A stretch of 64,000 bases of DNA from Pseudomonadota bacterium (GTDB taxonomy: Bacteria > Pseudomonadota > Gammaproteobacteria > Burkholderiales > Thiobacillaceae): the NCBI GenBank assembly GCA_021811235.1, contig JAJZPG010000001.1, positions 62,001 to 126,000 of the forward strand, read 5' to 3'. The notes under the pieces are model-generated. The model was given only the letters and a program-made list of their open reading frames with translations. It did no database searches and had not been told where the DNA came from. Of this stretch, positions 18,785 to 31,746 are shown in pieces (position 1 is the stretch's first letter; every line of letters starts with the position of its first letter). The translations under genes were made by a program, and so were the position numbers.

Positions 18785-18920
18785 GTGCCCGGGATTATTG
18801 CATTGGTGAGCGGCGAGTGGGTGGATGGACTGGCCCAAAGACCGATTGCTTCGATGGCTGGCCGAATCGCAATCCGAGAACCTGTCTGGCCGCGTTGAAG
18901 CGATTGCCGCGGCCTGTTTT

Positions 18921-18935
18921 GTTTCAATTGTTTCA
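18921..18935 (-). promoter_or_regulatory. GAAAC box, site 1, before the response regulator
   Basis: On the minus strand this reads TGAAACAATTGAAAC, two GAAAC half-sites nine bases apart. It lies about 70 bases before the response regulator, inverted relative to it. A second partial copy (AATCGAAACC) sits at 18987-18996. Confidence 0.55.
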
Positions 18936-19003
18936 GGGTGCTTTTGCATCGTCAGGATGAAGCGGCATACTGCCCCGGCTGGCAATAATCGAAACCTTCG
19001 ACC

Positions 19004-19726
19004 ATGGGACAGAAAGACAGCTTGCTGGTGGTGGACGACGAACCGGAAATCGTGGAGATACTGGTGGAGTATTTCTCCGGCCAGGGCTTCGACGTGCGCG
19101 GCGCCGGCAATGCCGCCCAGGCGCGGGACGTGCTGGCGGATGCGGCGCCCAGGCTGGCCATCCTGGACATCCGCATGCCCGGCGAGGACGGCCTGTCCCT
19201 GGCCCGCTGGATTCGGGAACACCGCCGGGAAATGGGCATCATCATGCTCACCACCGCCGCCGACGTGGTGGATCGCATCATCGGCCTGGAAATGGGGGCC
19301 GATGACTATGTGCCCAAGCCTTTCGAACCCCGTGAACTGCTGGCCCGGGTGAAAAGCATTCTGCGGCGCCTGGGCGAAGAGAACGCCGCACCGCCCATCG
19401 TGGCCGGACAACGGCCGGGGCGGGTGCGCTTCGGCCTCTGCGAACTGGATACCGACGCCCACAAGCTGTTCGACGCGGCCGGCAAGGAACTCCCTCTGAC
19501 GGCCATGGAATTCGACCTCTTGAAGGTGTTTTCCGAAAACGCCGGCCGCGTCCTGAGCCGGGACCAACTCATGGAACTGGCCCACCACCGGGGCTGGGAA
19601 GTGTTCGACCGCTCCATCGACCTGCGCATCATGCGCCTGCGCCGCAAGATCGAGCCGGACCCGGAAAAGCCTGAAGTCATCAAGACCGTGCGGGGCGTGG
19701 GCTACATGTATCTGGCGGACGCATGA
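19004..19726 (+). CDS. OmpR-family response regulator
   Basis: This is 240 residues. A receiver domain (1-120) has the acidic pair DDE at 11-13, the phospho-acceptor Asp55 in LDIRMPGEDG and the switch Lys in PKPFEP. A winged helix-turn-helix domain follows (about 140-238), with ending KTVRGVGYMYLADA typical of OmpR/PhoB. It overlaps the kinase gene by four bases (ATGA), so the two are made together. It is the only DNA-binding regulator in the island and the natural candidate to bind the repeated GAAAC boxes. Confidence 0.92.
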   Translation: MGQKDSLLVVDDEPEIVEILVEYFSGQGFDVRGAGNAAQARDVLADAAPRLAILDIRMPGEDGLSLARWIREHRREMGIIMLTTAADVVDRIIGLEMGADDYVPKPFEPRELLARVKSILRRLGEENAAPPIVAGQRPGRVRFGLCELDTDAHKLFDAAGKELPLTAMEFDLLKVFSENAGRVLSRDQLMELAHHRGWEVFDRSIDLRIMRLRRKIEPDPEKPEVIKTVRGVGYMYLADA

Positions 19727-22581
19727 CGGACGCCCTCCAAGCCAGCGCACCGCCCCCTGCGGACACGCCGCCGGGCGAACGCAGGGGCCTGCCGGACCTG
19801 AGCCTCTCCAAACGCTACCGCTGGCTGTTGCTGGCCCTCACCCTGCCCCTGTTCATCGTCGTACTGGTGCTGGCCGCCAGCCAGTACCGCAGTCAACGCC
19901 AGCAGGTCCTGTCCGACCTGGCCCGGGCCAGCGCCAGCCATGTCATCACCCTGGAAGCCATCGCCAAGTCGGCCCGGGACCACGTGTTGCGCATGCGTGC
20001 CTGGTCCGGCGGCTATCTGCTGAATCCGGCCAGCACCCCAAGCGGCCTGCGCCAGTACCTGTCCCCGCGCATCGAGGACGGCGCGCCGGCGGGCTACACC
20101 CTGGACGGCATCCCGCCCGCCCAGCGCGCCTATGTCGGCCAGCTCCTGTGGCTGGGGGAGAACCCGGCCAACGCCGGGCGCGCCTTGCGCATGCTGGACC
20201 AGGCCCTGGAGTTTTTCAGTCTGGTGCGGCTCACCCACGACATCGACGCCAGCTTCCAGTGGTCCTATTTCCTGCCGGCCAGCCGGGAGTTCGCCAACAT
20301 CTATCCCTGGTCGCCCACCGGGAAGCTGCTGCGCAACATGGGCCATACCCGGCTGCGTCCTGGGCTGGAAAGCCTGTATGGGCATGAGTTCTTTCTGGCC
20401 GGCTCGCCGGAACGCAACCCCGGACGAACGCCTTACTGGACCGAGCCCTACGTGGATCCGGCCGGCGCCGGGGCCATGGTGTCCCACTGCGCCCCGGTCT
20501 ACCAGGACCGCCATTTCCTCGGCGTGGTCGGCACCGATATCCGGCTGGTCACCCTGGCCAAGGTGCTGGAGCAACTGCCGATCACCGTGGGCCGGCTGTT
20601 GATCGTCGATGCCGAAGGCATGCTGCTGGCCGATTCCAGGGGAACGCGCGCCGATGCGGTGCTGCCCGCCACGGCGGCACTGCCCGCCGGCATGACCGCC
20701 GGCGATCTGGCCGAGGCCCGCCGGGCGGCCGGCGCGCCGGTGGAACGGGGAGGCCATGTGCTGGTGGCAGGATTCACCCAGCATGCCCCCTGGACCCTGG
20801 TCCATCTCATCGCCGACCGGGAGATCACCGCCCTGTTGCTGCCCCGATTCGTGCCCTACGGCATCATTCTGGCCCTGCTGGCAGGCACCTTCCTGATGGC
20901 CCTGTACATGCTGCGGCGGGAGTTCATCAACCCCGCCTTCGAACTGGTGTGCTACATCCAGCGGGTGTCCCGCGATCCGGCCGCCACCGAGCCGGTCCTG
21001 CCGCGTTTGTGGCAGACCTGGGTCACCGTCGTCTCCCGCACCTTCGCCGCCAACCGGGAAGCCAGCCGACAGATCAAGGAGAGCGAGGCCTTCAAGTCGG
21101 CCATCGTGGACAACGCCCTGCTGGCGGTCATCACCATGGACGCCGACGGCCGGGTGGTGGAGTTCAATCCGGCCGCCGAGGCCCTGTTCGGCCACCGGCG
21201 CCGGGACGTCCTGGGCCGGGACATGGCCGAGCTCATCATCCCCGAGCGCCACCGCGCCGCCCACCGGGCCGGCCTGGCCCGCTACCTGGCCAGCGGCGTG
21301 TCGCAGATGCTGGGCAGCCGCCTGGAACTCACGGCCCTGGCGGCGGACGGCAGCGAGATTCCCGTGGAACTCAGCGTCTCCGCCAACCGGGTGGGCGGCG
21401 CCCACTTCTTCACCGCCTTCGTCATGGACCTGCGGGACAAGAAGCGGGCCGAGGAGGAACTGGCGCGGCAGCGGGATGTTTTGCGCCAGAGCGAGAAACT
21501 CTCCGCCATGGGGTCCCTGCTGGCCGGGGTGGCCCACGAACTGAACAATCCTCTGGCCATCCTCATGGGGCGGGCCGCCCTGCTGGAAGGCAAGGCCACC
21601 GACCCGGCCATCAAGGCCGACGCGCTGAAGATCCACGCTGCCGCCGACCGCTGCGGCCGCATCGTCCAGACCTTCCTGGCCATGGCCCGGCAGCGGCCCT
21701 CGCCGCGCCGTGCCGCCCACCTCAACGAACTGGCCGCCGGCGCCCTGGATCTCCTGGGCTACAGCCTGCGCAGCAGCGGCATCCAGGTGCGCACCCGCTT
21801 GATGGCCGGCCTGCCGGCCCTGGACATGGCCGCCGACGCCGTGGGCCAGGCCGTGGTCAACCTGCTGGTCAACGCCCAGCAGGCCCTGGCGGAGCAACCC
21901 GAACCCCGCCTCATCGAGGTGGAAACGGGCCTGGCCGACGGCGGGGTGTTCCTGCGGGTGACGGACAATGGCCCCGGCATCCCGCCCGAGTTGCGGGAAC
22001 GCATCTTCGACCCCTTCTTCACGACCAAGCCCGAAGGCGCCGGCCTGGGGGTGGGCCTGTCCGTGAGCCGGGCGGCGGTGCGGGAGCAGGGGGGCGAGCT
22101 GGTTCTGGAACCGGCCTCCGGAGGCACGACCTTCCGCCTCTGGCTGCCCCTGGATCCAGCCGCGCCCGCTGCCGGCAAGGCCGTCCCGGCACGGACTCTC
22201 CTGGACGCCGGCGGCGAGGTCATGGTCGTGGACGACGAGCCGGAGGTGGCGGCGTTGCTGCGGGACATCCTGGCCTCGGTGGGCTACACCGCCACCCTGG
22301 CGGCCAGCGGGCGCGAGGCCCTGGACTGGCTGGCGGCGGGCCACGACTGCACCCTGATCCTGACCGACATGCGCATGCCGGACACCGACGGCCCCGCCCT
22401 CTGGCGCGCCATCCGCGAACGGCACCCCCACCTGGCGGCGCGCACCGCCTTCATCACCGGCGACAGCATGTCTCCCAGCGTCGCCCCCTTCCTGCGGGAA
22501 ACCGGCCAGCCCTGGCTGGAAAAACCCTTCACGCCGGAGGACGTGCTGGCCCTGCTGGCGCGGCTGTTGCCGGAGGACTGA
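19723..22581 (+). CDS. Hybrid sensor histidine kinase partner of the regulator
   Basis: This is 952 residues. Membrane helix 1 is near 34-53; a large periplasmic dCACHE-like sensor (54-375) contains [19 protein letters not shown] and GVVGTDIRLVTLAKVL; helix 2 is near 377-397. Then come a linker, a PAS domain (about 453-565), HisKA with His605 in GVAHELNNPLAI, an HATPase domain with DNGPGIPP and FFTTKPEGAGLGVGLS, and a C-terminal receiver with Asp882 (LTDMRMPDTDG). It senses a periplasmic signal and phosphorylates the cotranslated regulator, perhaps through a second phosphotransfer step. It is paralogous to the kinase at the other end of the island. Confidence 0.92.
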   Translation: MTDALQASAPPPADTPPGERRGLPDLSLSKRYRWLLLALTLPLFIVVLVLAASQYRSQRQQVLSDLARASASHVITLEAIAKSARDHVLRMRAWSGGYLLNPASTPSGLRQYLSPRIEDGAPAGYTLDGIPPAQRAYVGQLLWLGENPANAGRALRMLDQALEFFSLVRLTHDIDASFQWSYFLPASREFANIYPWSPTGKLLRNMGHTRLRPGLESLYGHEFFLAGSPERNPGRTPYWTEPYVDPAGAGAMVSHCAPVYQDRHFLGVVGTDIRLVTLAKVLEQLPITVGRLLIVDAEGMLLADSRGTRADAVLPATAALPAGMTAGDLAEARRAAGAPVERGGHVLVAGFTQHAPWTLVHLIADREITALLLPRFVPYGIILALLAGTFLMALYMLRREFINPAFELVCYIQRVSRDPAATEPVLPRLWQTWVTVVSRTFAANREASRQIKESEAFKSAIVDNALLAVITMDADGRVVEFNPAAEALFGHRRRDVLGRDMAELIIPERHRAAHRAGLARYLASGVSQMLGSRLELTALAADGSEIPVELSVSANRVGGAHFFTAFVMDLRDKKRAEEELARQRDVLRQSEKLSAMGSLLAGVAHELNNPLAILMGRAALLEGKATDPAIKADALKIHAAADRCGRIVQTFLAMARQRPSPRRAAHLNELAAGALDLLGYSLRSSGIQVRTRLMAGLPALDMAADAVGQAVVNLLVNAQQALAEQPEPRLIEVETGLADGGVFLRVTDNGPGIPPELRERIFDPFFTTKPEGAGLGVGLSVSRAAVREQGGELVLEPASGGTTFRLWLPLDPAAPAAGKAVPARTLLDAGGEVMVVDDEPEVAALLRDILASVGYTATLAASGREALDWLAAGHDCTLILTDMRMPDTDGPALWRAIRERHPHLAARTAFITGDSMSPSVAPFLRETGQPWLEKPFTPEDVLALLARLLPED

Positions 22582-22612
22582 GGGGCCCGCTTCCGGACCG
22601 CCCGTGGTGGCC

Positions 22613-22660
22613 GGAAACAATCGAAACCAAAGTGTGCGTCCCATGAAAAGGGATTGATAC
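22613..22660 (+). promoter_or_regulatory. GAAAC-box promoter, site 2
   Basis: GGAAACAATCGAAACC (22613-22628) is followed, after 23 bases, by GATTGATAC (22652-22660). The same two elements with exactly the same spacing recur at 22934-22982. The second element probably contains the -10 region. It would drive the small membrane protein gene that starts at 22706. Confidence 0.6.
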
Positions 22661-22705
22661 ATCCCGCGCCCAAGCTGGCGGCTCCCCCTCCTTCCACGAG
22701 CCGCC

Positions 22706-22930
22706 ATGACCGCCCCCCTGGATATCGCCGCCGGTGCCTTGCTGTTGTTCCTGATGCTGGTGCTGGCCTCCCTCGCCTCCAGCCTGGTGCTGCGCCTGCT
22801 GGGCGAGCGTTTGCGGCACCCGGCCTGGGCCGGGTGGCTGGCGGACAACGAAACCGCCCTGCTGGCCGCGGTCTGGGCCGGCCTGGCCCTGGCGGCCTAC
22901 TACCTGGGCCCCCGGCTGATGCCGGGATGA
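22706..22930 (+). CDS. Small two-helix membrane protein
   Basis: This is 74 residues with two membrane helices (about 8-32 and 48-70) joined by a charged turn (RLLGERLRHPAWAGWLADNE). It follows a GAAAC-box promoter, so it should be under control of the two-component system next to it. No strong ribosome site is seen. The protein is not recognised; small two-helix proteins beside sensor kinases sometimes modulate them, which is only a suggestion here. Confidence 0.55.
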   Translation: MTAPLDIAAGALLLFLMLVLASLASSLVLRLLGERLRHPAWAGWLADNETALLAAVWAGLALAAYYLGPRLMPG

Positions 22931-22933
22931 GGC

Positions 22934-22982
22934 GTGAAACAAATGAAACCGTTCCATGCCCGGCGCGAAGCACGATTGATAC
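22934..22982 (+). promoter_or_regulatory. GAAAC-box promoter, site 3
   Basis: GTGAAACAAATGAAACC (22934-22950), then 23 bases, then GATTGATAC (22974-22982). The layout and spacing match site 2. It would drive the run of genes from 23036 to the last beta-helix gene at 28625, all on one strand with short gaps. Confidence 0.6.
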
Positions 22983-23035
22983 GGACGGCCCCCAAAGTGA
23001 GCCCATCGCCACTTCACTCATCGGAGGATCCGTCC

Positions 23036-23141
23036 ATGGCCGCCCTCGCCTGGCATTCCGAATGCCCTGCACGACCTGACGCAAGCACAGCAGGCACGCC
23101 TGGAGTTGTTCAAGCGCCGGCCGGTGGAGGCGGCGCCATGA
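23036..23141 (+). pseudogene. Short ORF apparently broken by one extra base
   Basis: CGGAGG lies eight bases before an ATG that reads MAALAWHSE, then runs on in a frame without protein character. One base over, from 23061, the frame reads NALHDLTQAQQARLELFKRR, then PVEAAP and a TGA that overlaps the next start (ATGA). Removing one base near 23058-23060 would give a continuous 34-residue protein. It could be a real frameshift, a sequencing error, or chance. Confidence 0.4.
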
Positions 23142-23356
23142 AACGCCTGCTCGAACGCTTCCTGGGCCTGCCCCGTCGCCCCGCCGCCGCCGCCGGCTAC
23201 CTGGCGGAGAGCGTGGCCTATTCGGCCCTGCTGGCCGGCACCGGAGAAGACGCCCCGGTGCCGGATTTCGCTTCCTTCGTGACCGGCCCGCTGGCTCGCG
23301 GCGCGGCCCGGCCACGCCCTTTCCCCACCGTTTCCATCCCTGGAGCCCGCTCATGA
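23138..23356 (+). CDS. 72-residue protein before the first PEP-CTERM gene
   Basis: GTGGAGG lies seven bases before the ATG, and the stop overlaps the start of the PEP-CTERM gene (ATGA), so it is likely translated and coupled. The protein begins MKRLLERFLGLPRRP, an amphipathic basic start, then an Ala-rich helix (YLAESVAYSALLAG) and a Pro/Arg-rich tail. No signal peptide or known domain was recognised. The in-frame ATG at 23036 would add 34 residues of poor character. Confidence 0.5.
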   Translation: MKRLLERFLGLPRRPAAAAGYLAESVAYSALLAGTGEDAPVPDFASFVTGPLARGAARPRPFPTVSIPGARS

Positions 23357-24066
23357 CACTCAAACCCCTCCTCCTCGCCACCCTGCTGGCGGCCCCCCTT
23401 GTGCTCGTCCTGCCGACGGCCCGGGCCGTCCCCATCACCATCGGCTTTTCCGGCACCGTGGACAACGATCCCTACGGCACCGGCTGGACCGACTTCACCG
23501 GCCAGTTCACCTATGACACGACCTGGAGCGACCTCGCCCCCGGCGACGCCAGCGTGGGCATCTACCAGGGCAGCGGGCCGGCCTACGGCATGCTGGTGAG
23601 CGTGGACGGCGGCGCGGCCAGTTGGGACGGGTACGGCCAGTTCGCCATGCTGGCCATCCAGGACGACTATCCGGGCGTGGGCGATCAGTACCTGGGCTAC
23701 GGCAGCGACGGCAACTTCCTCACCATGGAACTGGTCCTGACGGACAGCACCGCTTCCCTCTTCGGCAGCGACGGCATCCTCACCGACCTGCCCGCGCTGA
23801 GCAGCTTCGACTGGCCCCGCTTCACCCTGTTCGACACCGACGCCGAGTTCGGCGGCATGGTGACCAGCCTGATCTGTCTGGACGGCTGCGTGGCGGGCAA
23901 CCCCAACGACCCGGGCGATCCCGGTGATCCTGGCGACCCCAACGATCCCGGCGATCCGGGGAACCCCGGCGGCAATCCCAACCCGGTTCCCGAACCCGGC
24001 TCGCTGGCCCTGCTGGGCCTGGGCCTGGCCGCACTGACGCGGGTGCGCCGGACGCATCGAGCCTGA
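23353..24066 (+). CDS. PEP-CTERM protein with an Asn-Asp-Pro-Gly linker
   Basis: This is 237 residues. A signal peptide (to ARA-VPIT) and a beta-rich body are followed by a low-complexity linker of NDPGDPG units. The C-terminal sorting signal is VPEPGSLALLGLGLAALTR plus a basic tail. PEP-CTERM proteins are exported by Sec, cut by an exosortase and placed on the surface or in exopolysaccharide. The linker probably spaces the domain from the membrane or matrix. The gene is coupled to the 72-residue gene before it. Confidence 0.88.
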   Translation: MTLKPLLLATLLAAPLVLVLPTARAVPITIGFSGTVDNDPYGTGWTDFTGQFTYDTTWSDLAPGDASVGIYQGSGPAYGMLVSVDGGAASWDGYGQFAMLAIQDDYPGVGDQYLGYGSDGNFLTMELVLTDSTASLFGSDGILTDLPALSSFDWPRFTLFDTDAEFGGMVTSLICLDGCVAGNPNDPGDPGDPGDPNDPGDPGNPGGNPNPVPEPGSLALLGLGLAALTRVRRTHRA

Positions 24067-24095
24067 ACCGGCAGCGATCACGCAGGGACCCCACG

Positions 24096-24758
24096 ATGAG
24101 CTCCGAACGCCTCCTCCTCCGCGCCCTCCCGGCGCTGGCCACGGCTCTGATCGGGCTGGCGGCCGTGCCCGGCCAGGCCGCCGTCATGTTCCATGCCGAC
24201 CCCGCCGGTTTCGCCGCCGCGGTGTCGCCGCAAGGCTTCGACGACTTCGAGGCCGCGCCCTGGGCGGCCGACACCAACTACGCCGGCCCGGTCGCCAGCC
24301 AGGGCATCACGTGGTCGGCCGCCAATACCCTGCGCGCCTCCACCTTCATGCCGCACAGCGGCCGCGTCGCCCTGTCCGACGTCGACGGCAGCCCCGACCT
24401 GCTCGACACGCTGACCGCCCAACTCGCGGACGAGGCGGACGGCTTCGGCCTGTGGCTGCGCAGCACGCTGCTGCGCGCGAATGTCGAGTTTGCGCTGCTC
24501 GACGCCAACGGCATGGTGCTGGACAGCTTCACCCAGACCTTCTTCGACCAGTGGACCTTCCTCGGCTTCAGCAGCGACACACCGTTCGCCAGCGTGCGCC
24601 TGCATGCCACCGGCAGCGGCGGGGGATTCGTGGACGACTTCCTCGTCGACGACGTGGCCTATGGCACGGCCCGCCCGGCCCAGGTGCCCGAACCCGGCTC
24701 GCTGGCCCTGCTGGGCCTGGGCCTGGCGGCCCTCACCCGCGCCCGCAAGCAGCATTGA
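24096..24758 (+). CDS. PEP-CTERM protein 2
   Basis: This is 220 residues with a signal peptide (PGQA-AVMF) and a beta-sandwich-like body (FDDFEAAPWAADTNYAGPVA, then VDDFLVDDVAYG). The PEP-CTERM signal VPEPGSLALLGLGLAALTR is identical over its core to that of the preceding protein. The body resembles secreted PEP-CTERM proteins of unknown ligand. AGGGA precedes the ATG. The two genes share the same sorting signal but not the same body, so one end was probably copied. Confidence 0.88.
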   Translation: MSSERLLLRALPALATALIGLAAVPGQAAVMFHADPAGFAAAVSPQGFDDFEAAPWAADTNYAGPVASQGITWSAANTLRASTFMPHSGRVALSDVDGSPDLLDTLTAQLADEADGFGLWLRSTLLRANVEFALLDANGMVLDSFTQTFFDQWTFLGFSSDTPFASVRLHATGSGGGFVDDFLVDDVAYGTARPAQVPEPGSLALLGLGLAALTRARKQH

Positions 24759-24785
24759 AACCCATCGATCAAGAAAGGCCCCGTC

Positions 24786-25505
24786 ATGAAACCCACCCTG
24801 TTGTTCCTCTCCCTGCTGGCCGCCAGCTTTGCCGCCCACGCCGTCGACGGCGTGATCCTCATCGACCATAACAAGGCACTCGCCGGCAACGTCACACCCG
24901 GCGACGCACCCGGTTATCCGGTGAGCATCAGCCGTTCCGGCAGCTACCGCCTGAGCGGCAACCTGACGGTGGCGGATGCCGACACCGGGGGCATCCTGAT
25001 CACCGCGCCCAACGTCACGCTGGATCTGAACGGCTTCAGCGTGCTCGGTCCGGTGCACTGCATCTACAACGGCGCCGAAGTGGCCTGCGACGACACCGGC
25101 AACGGCGTCGGCATCCAGTCCAGCGTGCCGGGCTTGAACGAGTACGAGGGCAACGCCATCAGCAACGGCGTGGTGCGCGGTTTCGGCCACCACGGCGTCT
25201 CGGTCGGCTACGGCACCCTGATCGACCGCCTGCGGGTGATCGGCAACGGCGGCGACGGCATCCGCGGCTACGGTGCCGTGGCGATCACCCGCAGCCTGGC
25301 GGTCTACAACCGCCTCCACGGCATCAGCGGCAACAACCTGAACGTCCAGTCCAGCCACGCGGTCACCAATGGCCAGCATGGCATCAACGCCAACGCCAAC
25401 ACCGGGTACGGCAACAACGTCTTCAGCGGCAACCTGGACGGAGATACCACCAGCAGCCCGGCGCAATTGGGCAGCAACCTGTGTGGCACGGGCCTTTGCC
25501 CCTGA
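24786..25505 (+). CDS. Secreted beta-helix protein, paralogue A
   Basis: This is 239 residues. A signal peptide ends AAHA-VDG. Then comes the family block ALAGNVTPGDAPGYPVSIS, the core TLDLNGFSVLGP, and parallel beta-helix turns (ISNGVVRGFG, VIGNGGDGIRGYG). The end is GSNLCGTGLCP with a Cys pair, likely a disulfide cap. Right-handed beta-helices often bind or cut polysaccharide; no catalytic residues are evident here. It has no PEP-CTERM tail, so it is secreted or held by other means. Confidence 0.82.
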   Translation: MKPTLLFLSLLAASFAAHAVDGVILIDHNKALAGNVTPGDAPGYPVSISRSGSYRLSGNLTVADADTGGILITAPNVTLDLNGFSVLGPVHCIYNGAEVACDDTGNGVGIQSSVPGLNEYEGNAISNGVVRGFGHHGVSVGYGTLIDRLRVIGNGGDGIRGYGAVAITRSLAVYNRLHGISGNNLNVQSSHAVTNGQHGINANANTGYGNNVFSGNLDGDTTSSPAQLGSNLCGTGLCP

Positions 25506-25539
25506 TGCCTTTCCCGCATTCGCATACGAAGGATATTCC

Positions 25540-26283
25540 ATGACACGCACATCCCTCCTCGCGGCCCTTGTCTCAACCCTGGCCGTCCTCCCCACCGCCT
25601 ACGCCGTCGATGGCGTGACCCTCATCGACCAGAGCAAGGCCCTGGCCGGCAACGTCACCCCCGGCGACGCCCCGGGCTTCCCGGTCACCCTCAGCCGGGC
25701 CGGCAGCTACCGCCTGAGCGGCAACCTGACCGTGTCGACCGCGGACGCCACCGCCGTACTCGTCACCGCCGCCAACGTGAGCCTGGACCTGAACGGCTTC
25801 ACCATCGCCGGGCCGGTCACCTGCACCCTGACCATCGGCCCCACCTGCTCCGGCCAGAGCGCCAGCGAGGACACCGGCATCGGCATCGACATCGCCGCCG
25901 GCCTGGGCTGGGCCGGCATCGCCGTGCGCAACGGCCAGATCCGGGGCCTGGGCGGGCTGGGCCTGCGGGCCGGGGACGAGACCTGGGGCATGCGCATGGA
26001 CGACCTCAGCCTGATCAACAATGGCCGGGGCGGGATGGTGGTCAACGGCGCGGTAGTCTCCCGCTCCCTGGTGATGGCCAACGACGGCCCGGGGGTAGAG
26101 GGTCATTCCGTGCTCCTCACGGAAAGCCAGGCCAGCAACAACAACGGCCACGGCATCAGCGCCATGGGCGCCCGGGGCGGCAACTTCTTCCAGTCCAACC
26201 ACGGCAGTGGCGCCAACGCCAACGTCACCCAGGGCACCGTGGATACCTCGCCCAACGTGTGCGGCAGCACCCTCTGTCCCTGA
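25540..26283 (+). CDS. Secreted beta-helix protein, paralogue B
   Basis: This is 247 residues from the ATG preceded by GAAGGA. The signal peptide ends TAYA-VDG; the block ALAGNVTPGDAPGFPVTLS and SLDLNGFTIAGPVTC follow. Beta-helix turns are rich in Gly and Asn (VRNGQIRGLGGLGLRAG, NNGRGGMVVNGAVVSRSLV). The C-terminus is NVCGSTLCP. It is closest to paralogue A in its N-terminal block (SGSYRLSGNLT and AGSYRLSGNLT). It is part of one five-gene array on the same strand. Confidence 0.82.
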   Translation: MTRTSLLAALVSTLAVLPTAYAVDGVTLIDQSKALAGNVTPGDAPGFPVTLSRAGSYRLSGNLTVSTADATAVLVTAANVSLDLNGFTIAGPVTCTLTIGPTCSGQSASEDTGIGIDIAAGLGWAGIAVRNGQIRGLGGLGLRAGDETWGMRMDDLSLINNGRGGMVVNGAVVSRSLVMANDGPGVEGHSVLLTESQASNNNGHGISAMGARGGNFFQSNHGSGANANVTQGTVDTSPNVCGSTLCP

Positions 26284-26315
26284 TCCCCGATGAACCCCAT
26301 CTTTAGGAAATCGCC

Positions 26316-27101
26316 ATGAAATACCACATCCGTCTGGCCGCCCTTGCCTCGGCACTGCTTGCAGCCACTCCCGCCGCCCACGCCGTGGACGGCGAAACCC
26401 TCATCACCCAGGCCAAGGCCCTGGCCGGCAACGTCACCCCGGGCGACGCGCCGGGCTTTCCCGTAACGCTCAGCCTGCCGGGCAAGTACAAGCTGGCGGG
26501 CAATTTGACGGTGCCCGATGGCGCCGATGGCATCCTGATCGACAACGATCTTGTGACCCTGGATCTCAACGGCTTCACTCTCCAGGGGCCGGTGACCTGC
26601 ACTGGCTTTGCTTCGAATCTGGCCTGTCTTCCAGCCAGTAATTACTACGCGATCAAGGCTTATAACCGGGTGGGTCTGCAGGTGCGTAACGGCGCCATCC
26701 GGGGGTTTCCCCAAGGTATTTCTTCACTGGGCAACTCCGGTCTGGCAGAAGACTTGTTCATCTCGGAGATCGGCGGTACCGCCCTTGGTGCGGGACACGG
26801 CAGCATCATCCGCGGCAACCGTCTGTACAAGGTCGGCATTGGCATCTACAGCGGAGGCTTGGTGCTCAACAACACCATTTACGGCGCCAATCTGAACGGA
26901 ATCTATTCCAGCTATGGGGGCCTGGTCATCGGCAACCAGACCCATTACACCGGCAGTGCCGGCATCGTCGGGGCCTACCAGGGAAACGCCGCGCTGGTGC
27001 ATAACGCAGCATCCACATCTGGTGGTTCCGGCAATGGCATTTCCGGCGGCGAGTCGCTGGGTGGTGGCACCGACAACTTCTGCGAAAACAACCTCTGCTG
27101 A
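26316..27101 (+). CDS. Secreted beta-helix protein, paralogue C
   Basis: This is 261 residues. The signal ends AAHA-VDG; the shared blocks are ALAGNVTPGDAPGFPVTLS, LPGKYKLAGNLTV and TLDLNGFTLQGPVTC. Beta-helix turns continue through IIRGNRLYKVGIGIYSGG and VIGNQTHYTGSAGIVG, ending NFCENNLC. AGGA precedes the ATG. Paralogues C, D and E share LPGKYKLAG, unlike A and B, so the array has at least two subgroups. Confidence 0.82.
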   Translation: MKYHIRLAALASALLAATPAAHAVDGETLITQAKALAGNVTPGDAPGFPVTLSLPGKYKLAGNLTVPDGADGILIDNDLVTLDLNGFTLQGPVTCTGFASNLACLPASNYYAIKAYNRVGLQVRNGAIRGFPQGISSLGNSGLAEDLFISEIGGTALGAGHGSIIRGNRLYKVGIGIYSGGLVLNNTIYGANLNGIYSSYGGLVIGNQTHYTGSAGIVGAYQGNAALVHNAASTSGGSGNGISGGESLGGGTDNFCENNLC

Positions 27102-27128
27102 TCGCGCATCCCATTCAAGGAAACCATC

Positions 27129-27902
27129 ATGAACAAGACCCTTCTGTTCGCCGCCCTGTGCACGGCCACCCTGCCCGCCCACGCCGTGGACGGCGAAATC
27201 CTCATCACCCAGGCCAAGGCCCTTGCGGGCAACGTCACGCCGGGCGATGCGCCAGGATTTCCGGTGACCTTGAGTCTGCCGGGCAAGTACAAGCTGGCCG
27301 GTTCGCTGACCCTGCAACAGGACCAGAGCGCCATCGAGTTCACCGCGCCAGACGTGGCCTTGGACCTCAACGGCTTCAAGATCCAGGGTCCCATCACCTG
27401 TACCGGCTTCGGTGCCAGCCTGGCCTGCGGGTCCGGCAACGTGGATACGGTGGCCGTCAACGGCCATAGCATCACCAGCGCCACGGTGCGCAACGGCACC
27501 ATCCAGGGTTTCAACTGGGGCGTATATGGGGTCGGCTATTCTTCCCTGGTGGAAGACCTGAATCTGCGGGATATCGGCGCGACCGGGATCATCGCCAGCA
27601 CGGGTTCCATCGTGCGTGCCAACCGCCTGTATGCGGTGGGTTCTGGCATCATCAGCGGCGGACTGATTTCCGGCAACACCGTGCTGAATGCCAGAACGAC
27701 CGGCATTTCCGCCAACTATGGCGATCTGGTCATGGGCAACCAGGTCTATTACACCGGCCATGCCGGCATCAATGCGGAGGGCCAGGGTTCCGCAGCGATC
27801 GTTCACAACGCAGCTTCCATCTCGGGCAATGGCATCCCCATCAATGGTGGCGACTCCCTGGGCGGTGGAACCCACAATTCCTGCGGTGGCAATCTTTGCT
27901 GA
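27129..27902 (+). CDS. Secreted beta-helix protein, paralogue D
   Basis: This is 257 residues with signal peptide, ALAGNVTPGDAPGFPVTLS, LPGKYKLAGSLTL, LDLNGFKIQGPITC and the terminal NSCGGNLC. The last third (VMGNQVYYTGHAGINAEGQG, HNAASISG) closely follows paralogue C, so C and D look like the most recent duplicates. A ribosome site AAGGA lies before the ATG. The expected fold is a right-handed parallel beta-helix capped by a disulfide. Confidence 0.82.
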   Translation: MNKTLLFAALCTATLPAHAVDGEILITQAKALAGNVTPGDAPGFPVTLSLPGKYKLAGSLTLQQDQSAIEFTAPDVALDLNGFKIQGPITCTGFGASLACGSGNVDTVAVNGHSITSATVRNGTIQGFNWGVYGVGYSSLVEDLNLRDIGATGIIASTGSIVRANRLYAVGSGIISGGLISGNTVLNARTTGISANYGDLVMGNQVYYTGHAGINAEGQGSAAIVHNAASISGNGIPINGGDSLGGGTHNSCGGNLC

Positions 27903-27923
27903 CCGTGTCCTCAGGAGAACACC

Positions 27924-28625
27924 ATGAATAAAGTCTTGCTGTTTAGCGCCCTGTGCGCGGCCACCCTGCCGGCCCACGCCGTGGATGGCGACATCCTGAT
28001 CACCCAGGCCAAGGCCCTGGCGGGCAATGTCACGCCGGGCGACGCGCCGGGTTTTCCGGTAACGATCAGCCTGCCGGGCAAGTACAAGCTGGCGGGGAAT
28101 CTGACCATTGCGGACGCGGACACCACCGGCGTCGAGATCACCAGTCCCCGCGTGACGCTGGACCTGAACGGCTTCGCCATCCAGGGGCCGGCGACCACCA
28201 ACGGGGAAACAGGCGCCAACCTGGACTGCAGCAATACCAGCTCCCACTGGAATCTGGGCGTGGGCGTCTTCGTCAAGTTGCCATCTCATACCCCCGCGGC
28301 CGTGTTCATCGGCAATGGCACCATCGCGGGCATGGGCGGCATCGGCGTGTCTTCCACGGCTGGCGGCAACGTCTCCAATAATACGTATACCGCGCAAGAC
28401 CTTCGGGTGGCGGGCAATGGTCGGGGGGGCATCTACTACGCGGTCGCAGTGCGGGATGTGATCGCGGAATACAACTGCGGCATGGGCATTTATTTCGGGC
28501 ACGCCGTGATGCATAGCGTCTCCCTCTACAACTCCGGCGCCGGCATCCACTCTTCTCAAGTGCTTCACAACAGCGTATTTGGCAACGGTAACGGCAATCA
28601 GGTGGGCACGACACCGCTGAATTGA
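27924..28625 (+). CDS. Secreted beta-helix protein, paralogue E
   Basis: This is 233 residues. The N-terminal 70 residues are nearly those of D (signal peptide, GDAPGFPVTIS, LPGKYKLAGNLTI), followed by TLDLNGFAIQGP. The C-terminal half is different, and the closing Cys-x3-Leu-Cys motif is missing: it ends GNGNQVGTTPLN. AGGAG precedes the ATG. It is the last gene of the array and faces the second kinase gene across a hairpin. Confidence 0.8.
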   Translation: MNKVLLFSALCAATLPAHAVDGDILITQAKALAGNVTPGDAPGFPVTISLPGKYKLAGNLTIADADTTGVEITSPRVTLDLNGFAIQGPATTNGETGANLDCSNTSSHWNLGVGVFVKLPSHTPAAVFIGNGTIAGMGGIGVSSTAGGNVSNNTYTAQDLRVAGNGRGGIYYAVAVRDVIAEYNCGMGIYFGHAVMHSVSLYNSGAGIHSSQVLHNSVFGNGNGNQVGTTPLN

Positions 28626-28634
28626 GGGACAGGT

Positions 28635-28658
28635 GTGGCCCGGGGCCACGTCTTGTTT
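28635..28658 (+). terminator. Terminator after the beta-helix array
   Basis: GTGGCC-CGG-GGCCAC stem followed by GTCTTGTTT, between the convergent array and kinase genes. Confidence 0.55.
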
Positions 28659-31477
28659 CACATCCCGCGCTTGAACCGCCCCGCCATCTCCAGAATGGCG
28701 GCGGGCGTGAAGGGTTTGTCCACCACCGGCAGGCCGGTGTCGTCCAGGAAGCGGCGGGCCGCGCCCCCCAGGGTGTCGCCGGTGACGATGACCACCCGAC
28801 CGGCCAGGCGGGGGTGGCGGGCGGCGATCTCCCGGTACAGGGCGGGGCCGTCCATGTCCGGCATCTTCAGATCGCTGAACACCAGGTCGTAGTCGTCCCG
28901 TTCCAGCCGCGCCAAGGCCTCGCTGCCATCGTGGGCCAGGCTCACGGCATGGCCCGCCGGGGCGAGGATGTCCCGCAGGATTTCGGCGACCTCCACCTCG
29001 TCGTCCACCACCAGGATGCGCAGGCCGCCGGGGGCAGGAACAGGCGCGTCCGTTTCGGCCGGTGTGGTGGCGATTTCCGCCGCCACCGGCAGGTTGAGGA
29101 CGAAGCAGGCTCCCTGGGCCGTGTCCGCCAGCACCAGTTCGCCGCCGTGGGACTGGGCGATGCCCAGGCTCACCGCCAAGCCCACTCCGGTGCCTTCCCC
29201 CACGTCCTTGGTGGTGAAGAAGGGTTCGAAAATGCGGGAACGGAGATCCCGGGGAATGCCCGGCCCGTTGTCTTCCACCCGCACCTGCACCCGGCTAGCC
29301 CCGGCGTCCCAGGCGGATGTCACCGTCAGGCGGCGGGGGCCGTCCACCTCCGCCAAGGCGTGCTGGGCGTTGCTGAACAGGTTGAGGAAGACCTGGCCCA
29401 ACTGGTCGGCGTCCGCCTGCACCGGCGGCAGGCGCCCGTCCAGCCGGGTTTCCACCGCCACGCCGCCGGCGCGCAAGCCGTAGTCGAGCATGTCCAGGGC
29501 GCCGAGGATCACGCCGTTGAGATCGGTGGCCTGGCGCCGGGGGGACTGCTGGCGGGCCATCGCCAGGAAGGTCTTGACGATGCGCGCGCAGCGTTCCGCC
29601 GCAGCCCGGATGCGGCTGGCGGTCTCCCGCTGGACGGGGTCCGGCAAGGCGCTTTCCAGTTGGCTGGAACGGCCCACCACCACCGCCAGGGGGTTGTTCA
29701 GTTCGTGCGCCACGCCGGCCAGCAACCCACCCAGGGCGGAGAGCTTCTCGCCCTGGTGCAGGGCCTCGCGCTGCCGGGCGATCTCCTGCTCTGCGCGCAC
29801 CGTCTCGGTGATGTCGCGGATGTTGAGCACCAGGCCGGCCACCGCCGGATGATTGCGCAGGTCGCTGGCGATGGCCTCCAGCTCGCGCCATGCGCCGCTG
29901 GCATCGCATGCGCGGAAACGCACCGGCTGGCCGCTGGGATGCGCGATCAGCGGTGCCAGACGGGGGCGGTCGTCAGGGTGCGCAAGTTCGAGCGCTGAAC
30001 GGCCCGCGAGCGCCCCCGTCTCGACGCCGAGCATCTTGCCGACGGCGGGACTGGTGTAAGCGATGTGGCCCTCCGGGGTCAGCACGACGATGAAATCGGA
30101 GGCGTTCTCGGTCATGGCGCGCCAGCGTTCTTCGGTGCGGCGCACTTCGCTTAGGGCGGCTTCGATTTCCGCCTTGTCCCGGCGCAGGGCCGCGTCCCGC
30201 TCTGCAACCTTGGCGGCCATGTCGTTGAAGGCATGGGCCAGACGGCCCAACTCGTCCGGACGGTCATCAGGCAGGCGTATGGCGGTCTCGCCGCCGGCCA
30301 CACGCTCGGCGGCGCGGGTGAGGTCGCCCAGCGGCGAAGCGATCTGCCGCCGCAGCACGGCGGCGAACACGCCCAGCAGCAGCACCAGCGCGACGATACC
30401 GGTCCACAGCGCCCACTGGGCTTCGCCCAGTGCCTCGGCACGCACGACCTTGCCAGGCAGCACCGTAGCCATAAGCCAACCCGGCCCCTCCACACGGGCG
30501 ATGGCGAAGTAGCTGTCTTCTCCATCGTTGAAGCCGGTGATCGGAAAATGCGCCGCGCCACGGGTGGTGTCATGGATGGCCCGGTACAAGGCCGTGGCAG
30601 TCGACGAAGCCTTGCTCCCCCCGGACGGGTCGGCTGGCGATTGGGTGTCGTGGATGAGCGTGCCGTTGGCGCGAAGGAGAATGTAACGGCCGCTGGTTTC
30701 CTCGGCGTTGCTGAGCAGCACGCGCTTCACCATGCCGCTCACGGTATTGGACGAGCAAACCGTGGCGAGATGGCGGTTCTGGTAGAGGATCGGGGTCAGC
30801 GTCGAATACACCAGGCCGGCATCGCCGCCACTGTCGTCGACTTCCGGCCCGGCCCAGCGCGCACCTTCCCCGGGCTGGGCCGGCGCGTACGCAAGCCGGC
30901 CCCATTCGTAGATCTTCTGGTCGAAATCGGCGGGGATGAGGTTGGCCCAATCCGGGTACAGGATCGGGTCGTATCCCATGTTGGCCTGCTCGGGCAGACT
31001 GGTGAAGAACAGGTTGTCTTCGCGAATCACCATGCCCGGGCCGTACTGTTGCGATAGATCGAAGAACAGCACGTAGCGGCGGCGCAGATCGTCGCTGATC
31101 TTCTCGCCCTTGCGGATCCAGCCGGTGGACCATTTATGCCCGTCGCTGATGTCGGAACGGTTGCGGATGCTGCCATCGGGATACCGCACGAACAACTGAT
31201 CGAAGCGGCGCAGGGTATCCGGCCCCTGGTAGGCCGGCCATTTCTCGACGAAGGCGCGCCGCACGGTTTCGTGCGACTCGACGGTTTGCACCAGCACCCG
31301 CTCGGCGATGCGCGCCCGTTCCAGCGCGCGCAGGGCCAGGCGCTCGCTGGCGTGGTCCTCCACCTGGCGATACAGCACCCAGGTGCTCACAGCACTGGTC
31401 AACAGCAGGATGAGCCCGCCCCCAAAGGCCAGGCGCAGCAACGTGCGGCCGGTGAGGGTGGCGGCAATGGCGGTCAT
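28658..31477 (-). CDS. Second hybrid sensor histidine kinase
   Basis: This is 939 residues from the ATG at 31477, preceded by AAGGGAG. Helix 1 is near 12-33; a periplasmic dCACHE sensor extends to about 350; helix 2 is near 353-373, followed by HAMP. A PAS domain, HisKA with His591 in GVAHELNNPLAVVVG, an HATPase domain (DNGPGIPRDL, FFTTKDVGEGTGVGL) and a C-terminal receiver (FSDLKMPDMDG) follow. The core closely resembles the first kinase (KTFLAMARQ and QTFLAMARQ), so they are paralogues. It has no cognate regulator next to it and may feed the one at 19004. Confidence 0.92.
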   Translation of the reverse strand: MTAIAATLTGRTLLRLAFGGGLILLLTSAVSTWVLYRQVEDHASERLALRALERARIAERVLVQTVESHETVRRAFVEKWPAYQGPDTLRRFDQLFVRYPDGSIRNRSDISDGHKWSTGWIRKGEKISDDLRRRYVLFFDLSQQYGPGMVIREDNLFFTSLPEQANMGYDPILYPDWANLIPADFDQKIYEWGRLAYAPAQPGEGARWAGPEVDDSGGDAGLVYSTLTPILYQNRHLATVCSSNTVSGMVKRVLLSNAEETSGRYILLRANGTLIHDTQSPADPSGGSKASSTATALYRAIHDTTRGAAHFPITGFNDGEDSYFAIARVEGPGWLMATVLPGKVVRAEALGEAQWALWTGIVALVLLLGVFAAVLRRQIASPLGDLTRAAERVAGGETAIRLPDDRPDELGRLAHAFNDMAAKVAERDAALRRDKAEIEAALSEVRRTEERWRAMTENASDFIVVLTPEGHIAYTSPAVGKMLGVETGALAGRSALELAHPDDRPRLAPLIAHPSGQPVRFRACDASGAWRELEAIASDLRNHPAVAGLVLNIRDITETVRAEQEIARQREALHQGEKLSALGGLLAGVAHELNNPLAVVVGRSSQLESALPDPVQRETASRIRAAAERCARIVKTFLAMARQQSPRRQATDLNGVILGALDMLDYGLRAGGVAVETRLDGRLPPVQADADQLGQVFLNLFSNAQHALAEVDGPRRLTVTSAWDAGASRVQVRVEDNGPGIPRDLRSRIFEPFFTTKDVGEGTGVGLAVSLGIAQSHGGELVLADTAQGACFVLNLPVAAEIATTPAETDAPVPAPGGLRILVVDDEVEVAEILRDILAPAGHAVSLAHDGSEALARLERDDYDLVFSDLKMPDMDGPALYREIAARHPRLAGRVVIVTGDTLGGAARRFLDDTGLPVVDKPFTPAAILEMAGRFKRGM

Positions 31478-31513
31478 GGATTCTCCCTTGGAGGTGTGCG
31501 GGATTCTATGCCC

Positions 31514-31529
31514 TGAAACACAGGAACCC
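31514..31529 (+). promoter_or_regulatory. GAAAC box, site 4, degenerate, before the second kinase
   Basis: TGAAACACAGGAACCC: GAAAC, four bases, then GAACC (one mismatch to GAAAC). It lies 38 bases before the kinase start and, as with site 1, is inverted relative to the gene it would control. Confidence 0.4.
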
Positions 31530-31746
31530 AAAGCCCCGGCCCATGAACCCGGGCCGATTCGAGCAAACGCGGCGCGAGTGTTTACTGATCGGGAGGGAGG
31601 CCGTCGTTCCATGGACGCGTCTACCGGCAGTCAGCGAACCCATCCCTCCCAAGGCAGGCAATGGCCGCTCTCCCTACGAACTGCCCGTCGTGCTGCTTAT
31701 CCGCTCCACTCAACCGGTCTTCAGGCACAGCGACGACGCCCGTCTT

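Follow-up and report, generated by a model that had tools for sequence, protein, structure and literature searches.

A 64,000-nucleotide stretch of a Thiobacillaceae genome (GenBank GCA_021811235.1, contig JAJZPG010000001.1, positions 62,001 to 126,000), here called the window, contains an island of two-component and secreted-protein genes in which the box GAAAC-N4-GAAAC recurs. Very probably, the neighbouring OmpR-type response regulator (RR) docks at this box. We put at about 87% the probability that the island forms a two-component regulon complete in itself, in which the phosphorylated RR would bind the boxes, activate the PEP-CTERM and exoprotein operons, and act on its own gene and on that of the second of two hybrid histidine kinases (HK1 and HK2). 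Read from sequence, the pairing of regulator and signal recurs in other proteobacteria, often ahead of genes for predicted exported proteins or globins. The motifs, their spacing, their conservation and their linkage to the RR are established by the searches described below.

The box in the window and the host genome

Motif scanning of the window placed exact boxes before the RR gene, a small membrane gene and a long structural run, and a one-mismatch box (GAAACACAGGAACC) before HK2 (Table 1). The initial annotation had these positions right, as it did the inverted orientation of the box before both signalling genes. The three exact boxes compare with a mean of 0.045 and a maximum of 1 in 200 dinucleotide shuffles. 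Allowing up to one mismatch gave 8 matches against 2.00 expected, a count reached in 0 of 100 shuffles; four of the 8 are sites outside the initial list. The box followed by N24 and GATTGATAC was found twice, and in none of 200 dinucleotide shuffles. Its spacing is indeed equal in both structural promoters, as first annotated, but amounts to 24 bases from GAAAC, the annotated 23 being counted from the C after the box. The full composite pattern, with both boxes described in the next section, also gave two matches in the window.

The 2.85-Mb host genome was scanned for chance matches in coding DNA, as had been suggested initially. The bare box matched exactly 8 times, against 1 for the reversed control. 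Five of these matches lie outside the island, all in mechanical stop-to-stop frames of at least 150 amino acids (aa). The bare box therefore lacks specificity and was rejected as a regulon marker. The composite held up: box, N24 and GATTGATAC at up to two mismatches gave 2 matches, both in the island, and 0 for the reversed control. Over all 117 genomes of the host's family the reversed composite matched once (G115).

Predicted operator-promoter architecture

Fourteen RR-bearing sources (the window, L038, L054, L056 and L082–L091) were scanned for the GAAAC-N4-GAAAC box (box 1) followed by TGATAC, yielding 29 matches. A hexamer nAnnnT lies 10 bp past TGATAC in 24 of them, although it played no part in the scan. 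The five matches lacking it (window 9041 and 35057, L054 6383, L085 4939 and L089 194) were left out of the alignment, the hexamer having already been noticed beforehand; four have spacings of 38–39 and the fifth is an overlapping register of a triple repeat. The alignment therefore comprises 24 retained matches and one L056 site added by eye, which fits with an offset of 41–42. The resulting consensus (25 sites, 14 loci) is GAAAC-N4-GAAAC, N16–18, GAA[AG]C-N6-GATAC, N10 and the -10-like nAnnnT.

Box 1, with a period of 9, begins 30–32 bp upstream of a second box of period 11 (box 2). Measured from where box 1 starts, TGATAC lies at a distance of 40 (9 sites), 41 (14) or 42 (2), and the second GAAAC is separated from GATAC by 27–29 bp. 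Between the end of box 2 and nAnnnT lie exactly 10 bp, and no -35 can be recognised. A-N3-T occurs at this offset in 25/25 sites and in at most 2/25 at any of 33 other offsets. The signal is thus a set of direct repeats that keep a constant distance to a -10-like hexamer and occur in linkage with the RR, and its spacers vary between families while the motifs persist. The initial annotation had read GATTGATAC as an element beside a single box; on the aligned sequences it is instead the downstream half of box 2 (GAARC-N6-GATAC, period 11), and the hexamer had been missed. GATTGATAC was also rejected as a -10 or -35, the A-N3-T hexamer sitting 10 bp further downstream. The strict composite pattern overlooks true sites in several loci (e.g. 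L087–L091), so its zeros mean little. At L054:6374-6396 (-), three GAAAC half-sites with a 9-bp period lie ahead of a divergently oriented frame of some 2,086 aa.

Linkage to the response regulator in other genomes

A search with the HK1 sensor matched 10 of 399 genomes of the order, including the host. Of the nine others, four were examined with wide flanks (L054, L055, L056 and L060), and two of these (genomes G173 and G373) carry a close RR adjoining the HK1 homologue. Within the families of these two genomes, the sensor matched in 1/74 (G173) and 13/200 (G373). Twelve further loci were examined, ten with an RR beside the kinase and two without (L092 and L093). In two other families the composite also lies beside RR homologues, which are 60–63% identical, and the segment FDRSIDLR[IV]MRLRRK[IV]E is present in the RR of 14/14 aligned loci. 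In a paralogous group of RRs (L160–L162 and L165), 54–56% identical, SIDIRIGRLRRK stands in place of this segment, and these proteins may recognise another box.

Profile R1 was built from 24 training sites, none from the host's family. Three places in the host genome, all in the island, scored at E<0.01 (Table 1), the next match being at 0.11, with 150 of 3009 first-look candidates scored. Recovery of the boxes at 22614 and 22936 is partly by construction, because the sites were picked with the window's motif; the specificity of R1, the hexamer, the GAARC half-site and the results in untrained genomes are not. The survey of the G373 family covered 200 genomes and used a first-look filter that scored 25 candidates per genome for R1 and at most 14 for the RR; R1 matched at E<=0.001 in 29, and RR homologues at least 64% identical to the L086 RR (E<=1e-95) were found in 24. 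The composite was present in 23/24 genomes with the close RR and 6/176 without it (p=1.3e-23), and in 12/13 versus 6/176 after removal of 11 training genomes (p=7.7e-14), by Fisher tests that ignore shared descent. R1 gave no match at E<=5 at more distant homologues of the island's secreted paralogues (L057–L059) or at HK1-like loci that lack a close RR (L055, L060, L092 and L093).

A search of 84,980 genomes (species) for the exact DNA pattern returned 15 stretches, of which six adjoin RR, HK1 or HK2 homologues. L015 and L022 are copies of a relative's island (HK2), an HK1 homologue adjoins the composite in L016 (Moraxellaceae), and RR and kinase homologues lie beside it in L020 (Novosphingobium), L026 (Protistobacter) and L028 (Burkholderiaceae). 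The hexamer nAnnnT is present in all six, against 2/9 of the others (L024 and L027). Six stretches (L014, L019, L021, L023, L024 and L025) look like chance matches; of the other three (L017, L018 and L027), L027 comes from the same metagenome-assembled genome as L016, and the L018 match precedes an RTX-like frame, identified by eye. The proposal of the initial annotation, that a single regulator controls both its own gene and its targets, is therefore supported by three lines of sequence evidence, namely the tracking of RR homologues, the adjoining homologues in 6/15 stretches and the confinement of R1 matches to the island at E<0.01.

Within the host's family, the exact composite and the secreted paralogue family were each found in 3/117 genomes, the same three that have the island (G000, G002 and G020); G007 has a match with two mismatches. 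This patchy distribution suggests acquisition by horizontal transfer. No match to the secreted paralogue was found among 72,556 plasmid records. The islands of G002 and G020, both from metagenome records, are nearly identical and were counted as one relative (L038), whose proteins are 75% (RR), 78% (HK1) and 72–79% (HK2) identical to those of the window. All four control points of the window have counterparts in L038, the weak fourth being matched by an exact box. An exact inverted box lies upstream of the RR with the same GTTTCAATTGTTTCA...GCATACT as in the window, another directly after HK1 ahead of the small gene, and a third before HK2, followed by the same GCATAGAATCC. The HK2 box faces a short PEP-CTERM-like gene on its other side. 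The counterpart of the 22936 box (L038:15339, minus strand) has lost its first half-site (TCAAC), retains the second and AATTGATAC, and precedes a PEP-CTERM gene.

Proposed mechanism and its alternatives

We infer RR binding, phosphotransfer and the signs of regulation from the sequence. HK1, and probably also HK2, would phosphorylate the OmpR-family RR, which would then occupy the tandem GAAAC half-sites of box 1 and box 2. Because box 2 ends so close to the -10 and no -35 is visible, the RR is probably a class II activator, substituting for the -35 and contacting polymerase. Box 1, about three turns from box 2, may load the RR first. Activation of this kind would switch on the gene of the small membrane protein as well as the operon for PEP-CTERM and other secreted proteins. 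Autoregulation is suggested by the lone inverted box 1, 31 bp ahead of the RR -10. At HK2 the inverted box covers the -35 region, which suggests repression or feedback; the precedent for repression is CenR from Rhodobacter sphaeroides, which activates from sites upstream of the -35 and represses from sites between the -35 and the start (PMC9275681).

Several observations weigh against this regulon model, besides the neglect of shared descent, the choice of sites by the window's own motif and the first-look filters mentioned above. The 64% RR cut was set after the gap to 56% had been seen. One genome with a close RR lacks the composite (G640) and six have the composite without it (G600, G613, G641, G659, G677 and G755), two of which, G677 and G755, carry an RR of 55–56% identity. 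The Novosphingobium RR (L020) differs in the conserved segment (FDRSIDIRISRIRKK), and the HK2 box was undetected by R1 at E<=5. The two box periods differ, 9 versus 11, and we know of no OmpR-family operator with a 9-bp box.

It is improbable that the boxes are bound by another protein, such as a housekeeping OmpR with similar half-sites, with the neighbouring RR a bystander. OmpR is the nearest NCBIfam model to the RR, and the ompC upstream region carries TGAAACATC half-sites. The composite nevertheless tracks the close RR, with only 6/176 genomes having it otherwise although all listed genomes had RR-like first-look candidates, these counts covering homologues of the island RR; and in the host's family the exact composite is confined to genomes with the island. 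Somewhat less probable still is a reading of the elements as promoter hexamers recognised by an alternative sigma factor, either of the extracytoplasmic function (ECF) type or sigma-54 acting with PrsR as at other PEP-CTERM genes. The strict letters and spacing would suit such hexamers, PrsR is present above cut-off in the host genome, and loose GG-N10-GC matches occur at 22786, 22801 and 22880, within the small gene. However, neither of the fuller -24/-12 patterns, TGGCA-N7-GC and TGGCNC-N5-TTGC, matched within 22600-23060; the second GAAAC lies too far from GATAC for a -35/-10 pair, with nAnnnT a further 10 bp on; and box 1 stands alone and inverted before the RR. Chance, or functionless copying of promoters within one island, would explain the five additional bare boxes in the host genome, but is very unlikely given the absence of composites from 200 shuffles and the persistence of the motifs between families while the spacers change.

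Comparison with known systems

The RR resembles OmpR in its winged-helix type and, in its predicted operator, in the half-site core TGAAACA, which is repeated upstream of E. coli ompC. That region (MG1655) contains TTTTGAAACATC and AAATGAAACATC, and we take its TGAAACA half-sites to be OmpR sites. The island differs in an RR under the OmpR equivalog cut-off, in its hybrid kinases and exoprotein targets, and in box periods of 9 and 11 where the OmpR operator has 10. PhoB-type class II operators end about 10 bp before the -10 and replace the -35; the island shares this distance and, in box 2, the 11-bp direct repeat. It differs in its half-site letters, PhoB having CTGTCAT with a 4-bp spacer (PMC3333781), and in the extra upstream 9-bp box. 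GlnR of actinomycetes combines a GAAAC b-site with a gTnAc a-site, the half-sites being 6 bp apart in an OmpR-like binding model (PMC3087709); box 2 shares the GAAAC and the 6-bp separation, whereas GlnR differs in its a-site and its role in nitrogen regulation. CenR shares the OmpR-family direct repeat and differs in its TGA-N8-TGA sequence and its role as an essential envelope regulator.

Published work links PEP-CTERM genes to PrsK/PrsR and sigma-54 by way of a conserved motif ahead of the genes (PMC1569441), and pepA depends on RpoN (PMC9850573). Two-component control by means of such a motif would be common to both systems; PrsR, however, is NtrC-like and works with sigma-54, whereas the island RR is OmpR-like and is paired with a -10. 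The host genome also encodes PrsR (771.9 bits, contig C58) and an exosortase (276.3 bits). Haft et al. (2006) noted that further regulators and DNA motifs were still to be found for PEP-CTERM genes without a sigma-54 box (PMC1569441). The island offers a candidate, in which RR, kinases, predicted operator and -10-like element are each located to single-base precision. Profile R1 offers an initial map of the regulon in other genomes and would make the signal accessible through reporters. It is likely, in our view, that PEP-CTERM and other exported proteins across Proteobacteria have a second control system independent of sigma-54, made up of an undescribed OmpR-subfamily RR, hybrid sensor kinases and a dual-period operator (9-bp box, 11-bp box and -10), and that its cargo changes (PEP-CTERM proteins, S8-like proteases, secretion systems, adhesins, globins and hydrolases). 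Judged by title, open-access searches with the box and operator spellings returned human-gene papers only, and no OmpR-type or two-component control of PEP-CTERM genes of this kind was among the matches listed.

Candidate targets in other genomes

Twenty-two R1 sites away from the RR were examined in 20 stretches from 8 genomes; these were chosen by us from 106 site rows and are not a random sample. Pfam was run on 8 nearby proteins. Matches included a globin (L176), alpha/beta hydrolases (L177 and L181), an ABC transporter beside an immunoglobulin/cadherin-like protein (L172) and PEP-CTERM domains (L184, and L170 barely above cut-off). The L179 protein, which had no Pfam match, was recognised by eye as related to the secreted paralogues. 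Also read by eye were two S8-like proteases (L183), another hydrolase (L175) and another PEP-CTERM-like protein (L167); L169 has no frame of at least 50 aa. The picture is of a predicted regulon of exported proteins with some cytoplasmic members.

In several lineages globin genes directly follow a composite or exact core: L016:5374-5934 (-), L017:3389-3874 (-), L176:289-720 (+) and L089 after 13329 (-). Pfam identified those of L017 and L176, and those of L016 and L089 were read from the sequence. In eight loci (L056, L084–L089 and L091) the first frame after the composite is about 60–110 aa long and carries the motif RSE[A/C]FxEDL.

Genes of the island

Features of the island are collected in Table 1. 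Both RR domains (PF00072 and PF00486) scored above their Pfam cut-offs. The best NCBIfam match was OmpR (NF007005; 233 bits, under the cut-off of 331), and none of the 25 listed of 95 NCBIfam models was matched above cut-off. The PhoB equivalog TIGR02154 gave 175.7 bits (cut-off 296.2) and the PrsR model TIGR02915 gave 21.9 bits (cut-off 502.6), in the receiver part only. The HK1 sensor was above cut-off for MCP-like_PDC_1 (30.0 versus 27) and below it for dCache_1 (29.4 versus 45).

Table 1. Features of the island, with positions in the window
Feature	Position	Strand	Basis
Box 1 alone, inverted to RR gene	18921..18934	-	Exact; R1 match 18907, E=0.004 in host genome
Putative -10 CATACT of RR gene, 31 bp past box	18966..18971	+	Sequence reading; also in relative
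RR, OmpR/PhoB family, predicted box-binding protein	19004..19726	+	Pfam Response_reg and Trans_reg_C
HK1, hybrid histidine kinase (PDC/Cache-like sensor, PAS, HisKA, HATPase, receiver)	19723..22581	+	Pfam
Box 1, first target promoter	22614..22627	+	Exact; R1 match 22612, E=6e-10
Box 2, GAAAA-N6-GATAC	22645..22660	+	Aligned with 24 other sites
-10-like hexamer CAAGCT, 10 bp past box 2	22671..22676	+	Aligned sites
74-aa predicted membrane protein, first target	22706..22930	+	Open reading frame (ORF)
Box 1, second target promoter	22936..22949	+	Exact; R1 match 22934, E=9e-10
Box 2, GAAGC-N6-GATAC	22967..22982	+	Aligned sites
-10-like hexamer CAAAGT	22993..22998	+	Aligned sites
72-aa protein, first gene of long operon, putative start	23138..23356	+	ORF; small ORF similarly placed in relative
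PEP-CTERM secreted protein	23353..24066	+	PF07589 above cut-off
PEP-CTERM secreted protein	24096..24758	+	PF07589 above cut-off
Five predicted secreted paralogues (24786-25505, 25540-26283, 26316-27101, 27129-27902, 27924-28625)	24786..28625	+	Identity
HK2, hybrid histidine kinase with HAMP	28658..31477	-	Pfam
Putative -10 TAGAAT of HK2; box ends 6 bp upstream	31503..31508	-	Sequence reading
Degenerate box 1 (one mismatch) before HK2, inverted to HK2	31515..31528	+	Motif scan

The 74-aa membrane protein had no match to Pfam or NCBIfam models; a 54% identical homologue occupies the same place in the relative. The secreted paralogues are 41–58% identical to the one at 26316-27101, and neither of the two scanned out of five matched a Pfam or NCBIfam model. 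A parallel beta-helix fold is our own, unconfirmed reading of these proteins. The GC content of the island (18900-31600) is 0.677, near the 0.664 of the window.

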